Shown piece by piece: positions 10,873-20,535 of a DNA stretch of 64,000 bases. Below the pieces are notes generated by a model. The model was not told the origin of the DNA, did no database searches, and worked only from the letters and a program-made list of their open reading frames with translations. The translations under genes and the position numbers were made by a program. The stretch lies in contig NZ_JABBEA010000001.1 of NCBI RefSeq assembly GCF_012912005.1, forward strand, positions 62,001 to 126,000. Direction: 5' to 3'. The stretch is from Paenibacillus sp. SZ31 (GTDB lineage Bacteria; Bacillota; Bacilli; Paenibacillales; Paenibacillaceae). How positions within the stretch are numbered: the stretch's first letter is position 1; the number at the start of each line of letters is the position of its first letter.

Positions 10873-10977
10873 TTGGTGTCAGCTCCTTCTGTATATATAT
10901 GTTCCATCATATCTCTACAAGGACCTGAACACAAACCCCAGTGACCACATAAAGACAAAATAAGTTGTGAAAAATGT

Positions 10978-11007
10978 TTGACAGATTGTAAAAGCCGATG
11001 TTAAGAT
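10978..11007 (+). promoter_or_regulatory. Promoter of the BmrCD-type leader
   Basis: TTGACA at 10978-10983, 18-base spacer, TAAGAT at 11002-11007 (TTAAGA gives a 17-base spacer). It drives the leader ORF at 11065 and, if the attenuator is passed, the two ABC genes. Confidence 0.7.
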
Positions 11008-11064
11008 GCAAACATACGAGGTCTACATTGCATTTATTTCCAAAAAAAGAAAGGGTGATTACGG

Positions 11065-11145
11065 TGTTTAACAAACATATGATAGGTCAATTCAGCACAC
11101 AATTAAATACCGGAGTACACCCGAAATCATTATTCTGTTCATAAG
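11065..11145 (+). CDS. Putative 26-residue leader peptide of the ABC exporter operon (BmrB-like role)
   Basis: GTG start with AAAGGGTG 6 bases upstream, 26 codons, TAA stop. The product starts MFNKHMIGQFSTQLNTG and ends with LFCS. It lies between a clear promoter and a terminator just before the BmrC/BmrD-type genes. In B. subtilis the small bmrB ORF in the same position controls bmrCD by ribosome-mediated attenuation. The peptide is shorter here and I see no sequence match, so equivalence is inferred from layout. Confidence 0.65.
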
Positions 11146-11201
11146 TCGGCATGACAAAGCGTTCTTTCATTAGAACCTCTGTGATGTTTACTCACAATCG
11201 A

Positions 11202-11291
11202 ACTTATGTATGGTGGCGGCTCTGTTCTCGGAGCCATGCTGCCGTATGATTATATGAAGACATACCGCCTGCGTGCGGTATGTCTTTTTTT
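11202..11291 (+). terminator. Attenuator: terminator with competing hairpin before the ABC exporter
   Basis: The terminator is AGACATACCGC / GCGGTATGTCT (11258-11285) followed by seven T. A competing stem pairs GCCGTATG (11241-11248) with CATACCGC (11261-11268), which is the terminator left arm, so the two are mutually exclusive. A third hairpin GGCTC/GAGCC sits at about 11217-11234, and ACTTATG (11202-11208) can pair with CATAAGT (11141-11147) across the leader stop codon. Confidence 0.8.
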
Positions 11292-11358
11292 GTGGGTACA
11301 TTTCGGCATACATGAACGGAATCTGCATTTCACGGACATTGAAAGGAAGGGATAACAC

Positions 11359-13104
11359 TTGTTCTCTGTACTTAAAAACCTGGCCTGGTTCTTCCGGCTG
11401 GAACGCAAACGATACCTGACCGGTGTCATCTTGCTTATTCTGGTGGGCGTTGCCGAACTGCTGCCTCCCCGTCTTCTTGGCAATGCCATCGACGAGATTG
11501 TGCGCGGTTCCATTACAGGCGCCTCACTTACCCGTTATATCTTGCTTATTCTGGGAACGGTCATCATTATCTATCTGGTTACATACGTTTGGATGCACAA
11601 ACTGTTCGGTGGAGCCAATCTGGTGGAACGGCTGCTTCGTTCACGCTTCATGGACCACTTGTTACGGATGACTCCGCCCTTTTTTGAGAAAAACAGAACA
11701 GGAGATCTGATGGCTCGGGCCACCAATGATCTTCGTTCCATTGCTACTACAGCAGGCTTCGGCATGCTGACATTAACAGACTCTACGGCCTTTCTGGCCA
11801 CCGTATTGTTCGCGATGGGCTTCCTGGTCAGCTGGAAACTGACCCTGGCGGCAATCCTGCCTTTGCCTTTTATCGCCATTGCCATGATGATCTATGGTAA
11901 AGCTGTACATCAACGTTACACACTGGCACAGGATGCATTCGGAGATATGAATGACCAGGTGCTGGAATCCATCGCCGGTATTCGTGTCGTGCGTGCCTAT
12001 GTGCAGGAACGTCTGGATGAGAAACGGTTCGCCGATGTGACCGAAGATGTATATCGTAAAAACCTGGCTGTTGCCAGAATGGATGCCCTATTCGAACCCA
12101 CCATCCGACTCTTCGTTGGACTCAGTTATGTGATTGCACTTGCCTACGGCATATATCTTGTATTTCATAATGAAATTACCCTGGGGGATCTCGTATCGTT
12201 CAATATGTACCTGGGGATGATGATCTGGCCTATGTTCGCCATCGGCGAATTAATTAACCTGATGCAGCGCGGTAGCGCTTCACTTGATCGGGTCAACGAG
12301 ACTTTATCCGTAGAACCTGCCGTACAAGATGTGGAGCAACCTGCTCACGTTACGAATCCGGAAGAAATTGCGATGCAGGATGTTACCTTCCGTTACCCTA
12401 GCTCCACTGTCGACAATCTTAGTCATATCAGCTTTTCGCTGCGACGGGGTCAGACATTGGGTGTTGTGGGCCGTACAGGTAGTGGTAAGTCTACTTTGCT
12501 CAAACAACTGCTTCATGAATACCCTGCCGGTTCGGGCACATTAAGCATCTCTGGTCATCCGATTCAGGATATCGCCAAAGATGACTTGCACAGCTGGATC
12601 GGGTACGTACCACAGGAACAAGTCCTGTTCTCCAAATCAGTTCGTCAGAACATTCAATTCGGTAAGCATGGTGCCAGTGATGAAGTGATCATGGAAGCCA
12701 TTCGTACCGCCGCTTTTGACGGGGATCTGGGAACCTTATCGGATGGACTGGATACACTTGTTGGTGAAAAAGGAATCTCTCTGTCCGGTGGACAGAAACA
12801 GCGGGTATCGCTGGCGCGTGCCTTTATTGCTAACCCTGATATTCTGATCCTTGATGATGCCTTATCTGCGGTCGATGCACGTACTGAAGCTAAAATCATT
12901 GAAAATATTCGCAACAAACGCTCGGGTAAAACTACGCTGATCTCGACGCATCGCCTGTCCGCTATCGAACATGCTGACCGAATCATCGTACTGGAGCACG
13001 GGAAAATTACGGAAGAAGGTACTCACCAGGAACTGTTAGCCATGAACGGCTGGTACCGTGAACAGTATGAACGGCAACAGGTCGAGTCCAATTTGTCCAC
13101 GTAG
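11359..13104 (+). CDS. bmrC: ABC exporter half-transporter, BmrC/YheI type (degenerate ATP site)
   Basis: 581 residues: a six-helix exporter membrane domain (about 1-310) and an ATPase domain with Walker A GRTGSGKST at 371-379, signature LSGGQ at 475-479 and Walker B ILILDD at 495-500. The residue after the Walker B Asp is Asp, not the catalytic Glu, as in the degenerate subunit of heterodimeric exporters such as BmrC. It would pair with the next gene to pump drugs out of the membrane. TTG start behind AAGGAAGGG. Twelve bases separate it from the partner gene. Control by the upstream attenuator is inferred. Confidence 0.9.
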   Translation: MFSVLKNLAWFFRLERKRYLTGVILLILVGVAELLPPRLLGNAIDEIVRGSITGASLTRYILLILGTVIIIYLVTYVWMHKLFGGANLVERLLRSRFMDHLLRMTPPFFEKNRTGDLMARATNDLRSIATTAGFGMLTLTDSTAFLATVLFAMGFLVSWKLTLAAILPLPFIAIAMMIYGKAVHQRYTLAQDAFGDMNDQVLESIAGIRVVRAYVQERLDEKRFADVTEDVYRKNLAVARMDALFEPTIRLFVGLSYVIALAYGIYLVFHNEITLGDLVSFNMYLGMMIWPMFAIGELINLMQRGSASLDRVNETLSVEPAVQDVEQPAHVTNPEEIAMQDVTFRYPSSTVDNLSHISFSLRRGQTLGVVGRTGSGKSTLLKQLLHEYPAGSGTLSISGHPIQDIAKDDLHSWIGYVPQEQVLFSKSVRQNIQFGKHGASDEVIMEAIRTAAFDGDLGTLSDGLDTLVGEKGISLSGGQKQRVSLARAFIANPDILILDDALSAVDARTEAKIIENIRNKRSGKTTLISTHRLSAIEHADRIIVLEHGKITEEGTHQELLAMNGWYREQYERQQVESNLST

Positions 13105-13116
13105 GAGGTCAATTCA

Positions 13117-15207
13117 TTGAAGTCTAATACAGGCAAAAGGCTGCTTGATTACGCCTTAAAAGCCAAAGGAACATTTATCGCTGCATTAATTATGCTTACC
13201 ATTGGTGTTGCGGCCGAGCTCGCCGGGCCGTTCATCGCCAAATCCATGATCGACAATCATTTGCTCGCGATTGAGCAGCCTTTCTATGAGACAACAGCTT
13301 CGGATGAAGCCGCAGTCTACAACGGTAAGAACTACAAACGCGAAGGCTTGTTCGAACCAGATGAAAGCAAAGGTTCTGAAGTGCGAGTATTACAAGCAGG
13401 TAGAAGTTTTTATTTTGTAAACGAACCAGTCAGTGCACCTGACGGAGACCGCGTCTATGCGGATGGAACCCTCACGGTTACACGCGCAGGCGAAGTGACA
13501 GGACAATATGCGGCAGCACCCCTGTCCGCTGGTGAACTCTTTGCTTTTTACAAACCGGAGATGCCCAGCATCTATCAATTAATTATGTACTACATGATCT
13601 TCCTCGTGATCTCGGTCATTATGGAGTTCGGTAAAACATTCTGGCTACAGTCTTCAGCCAATAAAGTCATTCAAAGACTGCGTAACGATGTGTATGCCCA
13701 TATCCAACGACTACCGGTGCACTTTTTTGATAATCTGCCCGCAGGTAAAGTTGTATCTCGGGTCACAAACGATACAGAAGCCGTCAAGGATCTGTTCGTT
13801 GCTGTTCTTTCGAACTTTTTCTCAGGGATCATCACGATTATGGGTGTCTATGTCGCACTCTTCCTGCTTGATGTTCGCTTGGGTCTGATCTCATTATTCG
13901 TGGTGCCGATGCTCATTGCGTGGATTGTACTCTATCGCAAATTCGCCACTCGCTACAACACGATCATTCGGTCAAGGCTGAGTGAGATCAATGCGATCAT
14001 TAACGAGTCCATTCAGGGGATGTCCATTATCCGCGTATTCCGCCATCAGAAACAAACCAAGCAGGAATTCGAAGATCTGAATGATGACTATATGAAACAC
14101 CAGAACAAAATGCTTAACCTGAATGCCTTCACCTCACACAACCTGGTTAACGTATTACGGAATATCGCCTTTGCAGTTGTGCTGTGGTACTTCGGTTCTA
14201 GCGTGTTGGATGGCACAAGTATTATCTCACTGGGTGTTCTGTATGCCTTCGTCGATGTCCTGGGCCGCTTGTTCCAGCCGATTACCGGCATGGTGAATCA
14301 GCTAGCCAACCTGGACTCCTCCCTCGTATCCGCTGGTCGCGTCTTTGAGCTGATGGATGAAAAGGGAGAAGCCGTAACCGATGGCTCTATGCCAAGATAC
14401 AAAGGGAATGTTGTCTTCGATGATGTATCCTTTGCTTATAAAAAGGACTTCGTGCTCAACAATATCTCGTTTAAAGCATCGCAAGGTCAGACAGTCGCTC
14501 TGGTCGGTCATACCGGTTCCGGTAAAAGCTCGATCATCAACCTGCTGTTCCGGTTCTATGATCCGCAAAAAGGCAAGATCACGATCGACGGTCAGAACGT
14601 CAAGGATCTGCCCAAACAGTGGATTCGGGAGCACATGGGTATCGTACTGCAAGACCCGTATCTGTTCACAGGTACGATTGCTTCCAATGTTAGTCTCGGT
14701 GATGAGAAGATCTCCCGTGAACGTATTGAACAGGCGCTGCGGGATGTAGGAGCTGAACGTATACTGGCTCATCTCCCTCAAGGCTTTGACGAACCTGTCA
14801 TCGAAAAAGGAAGTACATTGTCTGCTGGGCAACGCCAATTGATCTCCTTTGCTCGGGCACTGGCGTTCGATCCCGCTATCCTCATTTTGGATGAAGCGAC
14901 AGCCAATATTGATACGGAAACAGAAGCTTTGATTCAGAACGCACTCGAAGTCCTCAAAAAAGGACGTACCACCTTCATCATTGCTCACCGTCTTTCCACT
15001 ATTCGTTCGGCAGATCAGATTCTGGTTCTGCATCGCGGGCGTATCGTTGAGCAAGGTGCACATGATGAACTGATGGAGCTTAAAGGCCGCTATTATAAGA
15101 TGTATCAGCTCCAGCAAGGTGCGCAAGCAGCAGCGGGTGCAACCAGCGAGAATCCGTCGGGCGAGATCATTCCAACCTCAACCTCCTTTGCCGGAGGCAA
15201 TGCATAA
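13117..15207 (+). CDS. bmrD: ABC exporter half-transporter, BmrD/YheH type (catalytic ATP site)
   Basis: 696 residues. Between membrane helix 1 and helix 2 (about 51-150) is a polar insert of about 100 residues, matching the extracytoplasmic domain that marks BmrD. The ATPase domain has Walker A GHTGSGKSS, signature LSAGQ and Walker B ILILDEAT with the catalytic Glu present, complementing the degenerate partner. TTG start at 13117 behind TAGGAGGTC. The C-terminal 30 residues are low-complexity. Probably a multidrug exporter with bmrC; the substrate is not visible in sequence. Confidence 0.9.
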   Translation: MKSNTGKRLLDYALKAKGTFIAALIMLTIGVAAELAGPFIAKSMIDNHLLAIEQPFYETTASDEAAVYNGKNYKREGLFEPDESKGSEVRVLQAGRSFYFVNEPVSAPDGDRVYADGTLTVTRAGEVTGQYAAAPLSAGELFAFYKPEMPSIYQLIMYYMIFLVISVIMEFGKTFWLQSSANKVIQRLRNDVYAHIQRLPVHFFDNLPAGKVVSRVTNDTEAVKDLFVAVLSNFFSGIITIMGVYVALFLLDVRLGLISLFVVPMLIAWIVLYRKFATRYNTIIRSRLSEINAIINESIQGMSIIRVFRHQKQTKQEFEDLNDDYMKHQNKMLNLNAFTSHNLVNVLRNIAFAVVLWYFGSSVLDGTSIISLGVLYAFVDVLGRLFQPITGMVNQLANLDSSLVSAGRVFELMDEKGEAVTDGSMPRYKGNVVFDDVSFAYKKDFVLNNISFKASQGQTVALVGHTGSGKSSIINLLFRFYDPQKGKITIDGQNVKDLPKQWIREHMGIVLQDPYLFTGTIASNVSLGDEKISRERIEQALRDVGAERILAHLPQGFDEPVIEKGSTLSAGQRQLISFARALAFDPAILILDEATANIDTETEALIQNALEVLKKGRTTFIIAHRLSTIRSADQILVLHRGRIVEQGAHDELMELKGRYYKMYQLQQGAQAAAGATSENPSGEIIPTSTSFAGGNA

Positions 15208-20204: not shown

Positions 20205-20535
20205 CAAAAAAGCTCTCGTCTCTACATAAGAGACGAGAGCTGAATTAACAGTTCCCGCGGTACCACTCTAAGTGAACAGTTACTCCTGATGTGCATCAAC
20301 ATACATGCCAGTAGAACCTGCTCCGCTCGATGCGTATAACGGTCGCAAGCCGAGTTACCCTCAGACAGATATCGTACATCCACGATCAGGATGTATATAT
20401 CTTTTCGGATAACCATCTCACGGGTGCGTTTCACTCAGGTCATGTCATACCGGCTTCCACCTCTCCCGGCTCGCTGTCATGTATAGATCTGGCTACTCTC
20501 CCGATCATTGATATTCTTCGTTTCAATTCATTGCC
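20205..20535 (-). promoter_or_regulatory. T-box riboswitch, arginine type, controlling argS
   Basis: The minus strand carries the conserved T-box TGGTACCGCGG (20255-20265) before a perfect terminator stem AGCTCTCGTCTC/GAGACGAGAGCT (20211-20241) with a T6 tail. Upstream is a Stem I region with the AG-rich bulge motif (GCCGGGAGAGG). A plausible specifier is CGC (20426-20428) in AAACGCACC, an Arg codon followed by A, matching the downstream argS. Uncharged tRNA-Arg would bind and prevent termination. Confidence 0.92.

Follow-up and report, generated by a model that had tools for sequence, protein, structure and literature searches.

Leader open reading frames (ORFs) that report drug-slowed translation are known from the whiB7 and erm genes, and we propose the same for the leader described here, although those leaders belong to other genes and differ from it in fold and in the order of segments. 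The closest described system is the bmrB-bmrCD attenuator of Bacillus subtilis, a type that also comprises growth-phase control by AbrB. According to the main text of Reilman et al. (2014; PMC4191407), lincomycin raises readthrough into bmrCD and the terminator is required for this response. Lincomycin, erythromycin, and chloramphenicol all induce, and induction needs both translation of bmrB and access of the drug to the ribosome. The same text gives bmrB as a 162-bp, 53-residue ORF with a GTG start that has the terminator inside it and ends 119 bp before bmrC. It predicts an anti-antiterminator, an antiterminator, and a terminator, leaves the anti-antiterminator without a clear function, names, in the sections considered, no helix with the Shine-Dalgarno (SD) sequence or inside the early ORF, and also describes the erm and cat-86 leaders.

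Two further systems share parts of this logic. In the vmlR leader of B. subtilis, as described in part of PMC9226507, a uORF lies within the anti-antiterminator; a drug-stalled ribosome opens this structure and the antiterminator forms. In the toiL-topAI leader of Escherichia coli, as described in part of PMC12121999, a uORF senses several classes of ribosome-targeting drugs, as we propose for the present leader, and the sensor is pairing along the ORF, not one codon. In this work, we analysed a 64,000-nucleotide stretch of Paenibacillus sp. SZ31 DNA (hereafter the window) that contains an exporter operon preceded by a leader ORF. This leader is likely a ribosome-mediated transcription attenuator of bmrCD, orthologous to that of B. 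subtilis and composed of five mutually exclusive helices.

The bmrCD locus and its leader

The best PDB sequence matches of the two exporter genes were YheI and YheH, over nearly their full length. The first product is 61% identical to BmrC of the genome taken as B. subtilis 168, and its Walker B motif reads LDD instead of LDE, a feature that is also present in B. subtilis BmrC and that we take to be a mark of this protein. The YheH match to the second product is colinear across the N-terminal insert. The initial annotation had assigned the pair to BmrC/BmrD by these same two marks, and the assignment is borne out. A BmrC protein was found in 74 of the 75 genomes of the genus and in 243 of the 245 genomes of the family. 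In one genome, bmrC is split over two frames (G078:C10:129013-130754; matches 1-277 and 276-581), which may reflect a frameshift or a sequencing error. Another record, L089, is titled Neobacillus mesonae and has a Paenibacillus-type bmrCD locus at 80% identity; its name looks wrong.

The features of the leader are listed in Table 1. The promoter is the only plus-strand match within 10880-11420, and the leaders of relatives align at it. The 26-codon ORF has its own SD, GAAAGGGTGA. A GC hairpin (hairpin P) and the antiterminator pair GCCGTATG/CATACCGC are both present; the latter is short in the window, with 5 pairs and 2 more beyond a mismatch. The antiterminator shares an arm with the intrinsic terminator, and shuffles of the region gave an expectation of 0.3 terminators. 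A scan of the window and the leader against Rfam (E up to 1) returned nothing usable in the leader, and an NCBIfam search with the 26-residue leader peptide gave no match. All of these parts had been listed in the initial annotation and were recovered, and the GC hairpin reaches further than had been noticed. A separate promoter between 11291 and 11359, named there as evidence against attenuation, was looked for and none was found. That list of parts was without the switch itself, namely, the two helices in which the ORF takes part, A:B and B:C.

Table 1. Features of the bmrCD leader and the genes downstream, in window positions (SD, Shine-Dalgarno sequence).
Feature	Positions	Strand	Basis
Promoter TTGACA-18-TAAGAT, TG before the second hexamer (TG-extended)	10978-11007	+	promoter match
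Segment A, SD and start codon of the leader ORF; partner B	11053-11071	+	
Leader ORF, 26 codons, GTG start at 11064, TAA stop, peptide MFNKHMIGQFSTQLNTGVHPKSLFCS	11064-11144	+	
Segment B, conserved strand within the ORF (TTAAATACCGGAGTACACCC); partner A or C	11103-11122	+	
Stop-codon stem CATAAGT/ACTTATG with inner hairpin, clade-specific	11140-11209	+	
Segment C, 5' arm of hairpin P, complementary to B	11211-11225	+	
Hairpin P (C:D), 17 pairs, anti-antiterminator	11208-11247	+	folding
End of segment D, antiterminator strand GCCGTATG; partner 11261-11268 (terminator 5' arm)	11241-11248	+	
Intrinsic terminator, 13-pair stem followed by T run	11256-11287	+	
bmrC orthologue, TTG start, ABC exporter half, LDD for LDE at Walker B	11359-13104	+	
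bmrD orthologue, ABC exporter half, N-terminal extracytoplasmic insert	13117-15207	+	

Two observations lie beside these features. Many Paenibacillus leaders have, at the same place, the sequence found at the transcript 5' end of the window (11013-11020, CATACGAG). This sequence could form pairs with CGTATG, the antiterminator strand; it may be promoter-proximal sequence or an additional switch strand. Elsewhere in the window, a T-box leader on the minus strand (20226-20517) scored 94.5, barely above the Rfam gathering score of 93.

A conserved strand within the leader ORF and its partners

A search with the leader DNA found matches in 56 of the 75 genus genomes; these covered most of the query in 48 genomes and part of it in 8. 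Upstream sequences were gathered from the genus set, 80 named loci, and 60 family genomes hand-picked across identity levels; the 192 sequences comprised 167 distinct ones, and three more remained unlocated. A script called an SD-led leader ORF in 160 of the 167 and missed it in L109, L190, L191, and L200. Four loci from two genera have no leader, and another open frame runs to bmrC instead: this frame has 183-185 codons and comes to at most 11 nt from bmrC in L186, L187, and L188, and has 182 codons and stops 14 nt short in L189, where the leader ORF called by the script is spurious.

Most of the 80 named loci share, at the nucleotide level, a conserved stretch within the ORF that resembles CAAYTRAATACCGRAGCARCCC. 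The 16-base core of this strand (segment B) was matched at no fewer than 11 places in 130 loci, and the SD and start codon were recognisable in 126 of these. Of the 126, 124 have an ORF that continues without a stop across the core; for the other two (L116 and L129), the script chose the wrong start codon, and the usual GTG ORF is open there as well. Among representatives of the diversity, the frame is open in 38 of 38, compared with 12 expected from shuffles, and the core lies 33-72 nt past the start codon and 17-62 nt ahead of the stop. By contrast, the frame in which the core is read varies (frame 0 in 108 loci, 1 in 13, and 2 in 3; n = 124). Because the three frame-2 loci owe their frame to a one-base deletion within the motif and retain some of the peptide, the firm cases of a frame shift are the 13 frame-1 loci. 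Close relatives can differ in frame with the nucleotides kept (L097 and L100; L204 and L205), which indicates that the RNA is conserved rather than the peptide. A comparison across relatives, as the initial annotation had proposed, thus finds covarying stems and an open frame through B conserved, but neither the leader peptide nor its frame.

Segment B is complementary to segment A. When transcripts that stop before C are folded, the SD/start region engages 7.5 of the 12 core bases of B, compared with 1.0 of 12 when the 5' part is shuffled, and this pairing exceeds the shuffled mean in 38 of 40 representatives. The A:B duplex is stronger with the sequence's own partner (-16.2 kcal/mol) than with swapped partners (-13.2 kcal/mol; 56 sequences), a difference reached by 0 of 20000 permutations. 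The same count, 0 of 20000, was obtained for the subset of 37 representatives of the motif-bearing family set, followed by 22 of 20000 for 11 distant-genus sequences and 106 of 20000 for 8 Bacillus sequences. In register, 85.1% of cells are paired, compared with 37-48% after sliding, and the covariation score was reached by none of 500 shuffles. Taken one by one, just 25 of the 56 sequences beat 95% of their ORF shuffles. For set A2, 12 of the 80 named loci were excluded by list and L109 for having no scripted ORF, leaving 67, of which 49 were used together with the window; L145 was excluded from set A1. When the whole genome of the window was searched with a covariance model of A:B, this locus was the single match (E = 5.1e-10). 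Among 11 other genomes, 9 were matched at E up to 1, B. subtilis and G229 being unmatched; the best match lies directly 5' of bmrC in 8 genomes, and two additional weak hits at other places (E = 0.235 and 0.759) are probably due to chance.

The second partner of B is C. With a fixed 12-nt strand, the B:C duplex has -12.6 kcal/mol with its own partner, -10.2 kcal/mol with swapped partners, and -9.1 kcal/mol with shuffled ones (40 representatives; 0 of 20000 permutations); a duplex scan over the whole ORF gave long mixed duplexes. The own partner was better than the mean swap in 34 of the 40, the other six being no better with their own C. For this test, 33 of the 160 sequences were left out for a weak motif or no terminator, and L205, whose terminator is probably miscalled, was kept. 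A plain alignment of 80 rows, in which some blocks are out of register, has 71.3% of B:C cells paired, compared with 35-51% after sliding. The covariation score was reached by 1 of 500 shuffles, and two of the five measures (two-sided pairs and pair types) were no higher than in shuffles. Unselective searches in the distant genera and Bacillus were weak (496 of 20000 together; 9095 and 2367 apart), as was a further such test in these groups (2862 of 20000); the close similarity of B between the compared relatives is probably part of the reason.

The remaining helices follow downstream. Hairpin P, in which D pairs with C and the antiterminator strand is locked up, has a register that varies by clade, and a pair count across relatives is therefore not given. 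For the antiterminator (D:T5), 76.9% of cells are paired, compared with at most 47% after sliding. One column pair, A-U in 56 sequences and G-C in 22, is its sole two-sided change, and its pair types and two-sided pairs are not above shuffles. The terminator is paired in 97.7% of cells over 80 sequences, with 9 of 12 pairs altered on both sides.

Within the window's own clade, 29 of 47 loci have the stem across the stop codon with at least 6 pairs, and paired changes distinguish three forms of it. Among the 40 diverse representatives it occurs in 5, compared with 9% by chance. The stem described in the initial annotation thus holds within the clade and was rejected as a general part of the leader; it may be an extension of the B:C structure.

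Proposed circuit and alternative readings

The five helices form a chain in which neighbours share a strand: A:B, B:C, C:D (P), D:T5 (antiterminator), and T5:T3 (terminator). Since the helices alternate, A:B favours termination and its loss favours readthrough. Judged by the usual footprint, a ribosome within roughly the first eight codons would sit over A without occupying B, and behind one at the stop codon A and B could pair. With no ribosome, A:B would hold B, P would form, and the antiterminator strand would be locked, giving termination. A ribosome that has moved past B would allow A:B to close behind it, with P forming and the operon OFF. A drug-stalled ribosome on about the first eight codons, in contrast, would cover A and leave B free to take C as C leaves the polymerase; P would be blocked, D:T5 would form, and transcription would read through into bmrCD. 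The leader would then be ON for early stalls and OFF for normal or absent translation. That translation and a drug-bound ribosome are required is carried over by analogy from B. subtilis, as presented in the main text of PMC4191407. The proposal of a BmrB-type attenuator read by the ribosome, made in the initial annotation, is consistent with the true BmrC/BmrD genes downstream, the SD-led leader ORF, and the alternative helices.

Equilibrium folding of the window did not reveal the switch: P dominates in all three states (A free, A covered, B masked), joined at full length by the terminator, and B:C stays at 0.0-0.1. At the point where C has only just emerged and A is occupied by a ribosome, B:C has 6.4 pairs in the window and 6.9 on average in 35 of the 40 representatives, compared with 0.0 and 3.6 in bare RNA; in the window, B:C is lost once more RNA emerges. 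With A covered, B:C is favoured over P by a median of 1.9 kcal/mol, with a median barrier of 15.9 kcal/mol, in the 29 of 34 representatives forming B:C (34 of the 40 were used here). Exclusions from these two sets were made for a weak motif, an absent terminator, or similar grounds. The window is at the weak end, with P favoured over B:C by 5.6 kcal/mol and a barrier of 8.4 kcal/mol. Antiterminator pairs barely differ between the two modelled states (8.5 and 7.6). As the switch is not seen at equilibrium, control would have to be kinetic.

Other readings of the leader were weighed against this circuit. One is that a specific leader peptide (QLNTG..P) stalls drug-bound ribosomes, as in erm and cat leaders. 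In its favour, 41 of 79 named leaders contain LNTG or LNTE, although the count is 17 of 40 among diverse representatives. Such a nascent-peptide sensor is nevertheless improbable. The frame of B differs in 16 of 124 loci, close relatives included, with the nucleotides kept, the peptide is without similarity to that of B. subtilis, and the conserved letters are explained by complementarity between A and B. The window leader has neither the conserved peptide nor the fixed frame of the erm/cat type. The paired changes in the stop-codon stem of the window's clade would suit a model in which a ribosome at or near the stop opens this stem and thereby frees the antiterminator, but the stem is missing in most other species, most of which have B:C and the terminator all the same, and it may merely extend the B:C structure. 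We regard this model as quite improbable.

Strongly covarying RNA together with a leader peptide that is not conserved would also be seen in a riboswitch or a protein-binding leader with the ORF uninvolved. This reading is made highly improbable by the SD-led ORF that stays open through B far more often than shuffles predict, as well as by the requirement for translation in B. subtilis reported in the main text of PMC4191407. A leader ORF and a terminator are likewise the parts of an amino-acid attenuator that counts charged tRNA; here, however, the leaders listed share no codon run (short His or Ser runs occur in single leaders) and exporter genes lie downstream, which leaves such an attenuator scarcely conceivable.

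The Bacillus subtilis leader and three-helix forms

The attenuator of B. subtilis, in the main text of PMC4191407, resembles that of the window in its orthologous exporter, leader ORF, antiterminator, anti-antiterminator, and terminator, and A:B and B:C are found in the B. subtilis sequence as well. In L274, B pairs with the SD (by folding) and with C (-17.2 kcal/mol), and the close relative L268 represents the B. subtilis type of A:B in the swap test above. The predicted anti-antiterminator, antiterminator, and terminator of that text most likely correspond to C:D, D:T5, and T. The two descriptions differ in the ORF: the published bmrB is a 53-residue GTG frame through the terminator, whereas the conserved ORF is SD-led, has 23 codons, and ends before the terminator. 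In L274, where the annotated ORF is at 666-827, an SD-led ATG ORF of 23 codons (MPRNLRVYQTVSYWRGKPFVLFS) lies 16 nt upstream in another frame. All 20 Bacillus upstream regions retrieved have such an SD-led ATG ORF; in three, it was chosen manually because the script had missed or misplaced it. The annotated BmrB frame keeps its GTG in 6 of the 20 and is open beyond the first terminator T run in 4.

Published constructs bear on both ORFs. In the main text of PMC4191407, the no-start construct has lower expression and no induction, as A:B predicts. This construct also had four 5' UTR changes against other starts or ribosome sites, and it therefore fits either ORF. An in-frame fusion to the annotated frame fluoresced from a plasmid but not from the chromosome; the plasmid result speaks for some translation of the annotated BmrB frame and against the 23-codon reading.

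The leader peptide of the window aligns with neither B. subtilis frame, and the Bacillus leader peptides differ among themselves, so likeness to BmrB is not a defining feature. The initial annotation was right that the peptide is unlike BmrB, but this is no sign of a separate sensor, given that the peptide is not conserved. Its suggestion of an independently evolved sensor is not upheld, as the RNA circuit is common to B. subtilis and other Bacillus; the peptide alone differs from B. subtilis because the peptide is not what is conserved. Many Bacillus regions (L265-L284) have, by eye, a second small ORF with a KEKLEGG-like tail between the terminator and bmrC, just 5' of the bmrC ribosome site.

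In the distant genera and some Bacillus, the hairpin met by B is itself a terminator with a T run. The duplex of B with the terminator 5' arm has -14.3 kcal/mol with its own partner and -11.6 kcal/mol with swapped ones (6 of 20000; 17 sequences); in 6 of the 17, the own duplex is at least as stable as the 5% level for shuffled B. This test considered just the A-paired strand and the terminator arm, so its outcome depends on a chosen strand; L279 was excluded for having no terminator, and in L276 and L277 the second terminator was probably taken. Because B pairs directly with the terminator 5' arm, the sign is fixed and free B means antitermination. With A:B, B:T1, and T1, the number of helices is three, again odd, and the sign is the same as with five.

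As described in part of PMC9226507, vmlR has the same logic as this three-helix form, and the three-helix order fits the distant genera. The window is not of this type, having two extra helices (B:C and C:D). The vmlR leader in that source further differs from the window in its tripeptide uORF, single-stranded SD, and extra hairpin that sequesters the SD of vmlR; its target is an ABCF gene rather than an exporter, and its chain is two helices shorter. The toiL-topAI leader, in the part of PMC12121999 considered, is unlike the window in acting on downstream initiation and Rho, with no intrinsic terminator chain.

On balance, we favour the view that the bmrCD sensor across Bacilli is a frame-independent RNA strand within the ORF, complementary to the ORF's own SD and start and firing on early stalls only. 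It would work in a three- or five-helix circuit, the two helices being gained or lost together with the logic kept, and annotated BmrB would be in the wrong frame, the real leader having 23 codons. The literature searched, including the sections of PMC4191407 considered here, contained neither the A:B and B:C helices nor the 23-codon ORF. Relative to that literature, what is new is the circuit up to the ribosome, its independence of frame, its occurrence with either three or five helices, and the probable misassignment of the BmrB frame. If correct, this view would explain the need for translation, the site of the ribosome stall, and the purpose of the anti-antiterminator, and would place a studied B. 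subtilis leader peptide in the wrong frame. It would also mean that the logic of a sensor can persist while peptide, frame, and helix number change; as these vary, searches by peptide or by a fixed RNA family would miss relatives.

A class-wide look at 20 genomes gave an SD-led ORF with A:B at a shuffle p of 0.05 or below in 8 (L294, L295, L298, L303, L305, L306, L307, and L308), with the exporter start poorly located in several; in the other 12, A:B was weaker or the leader was not found. This result serves as a lead only. In L305-L308, from other families of the class, short SD-led ORFs precede BmrCD-like genes and pair with their own SD at -14.9 to -20.1 kcal/mol.
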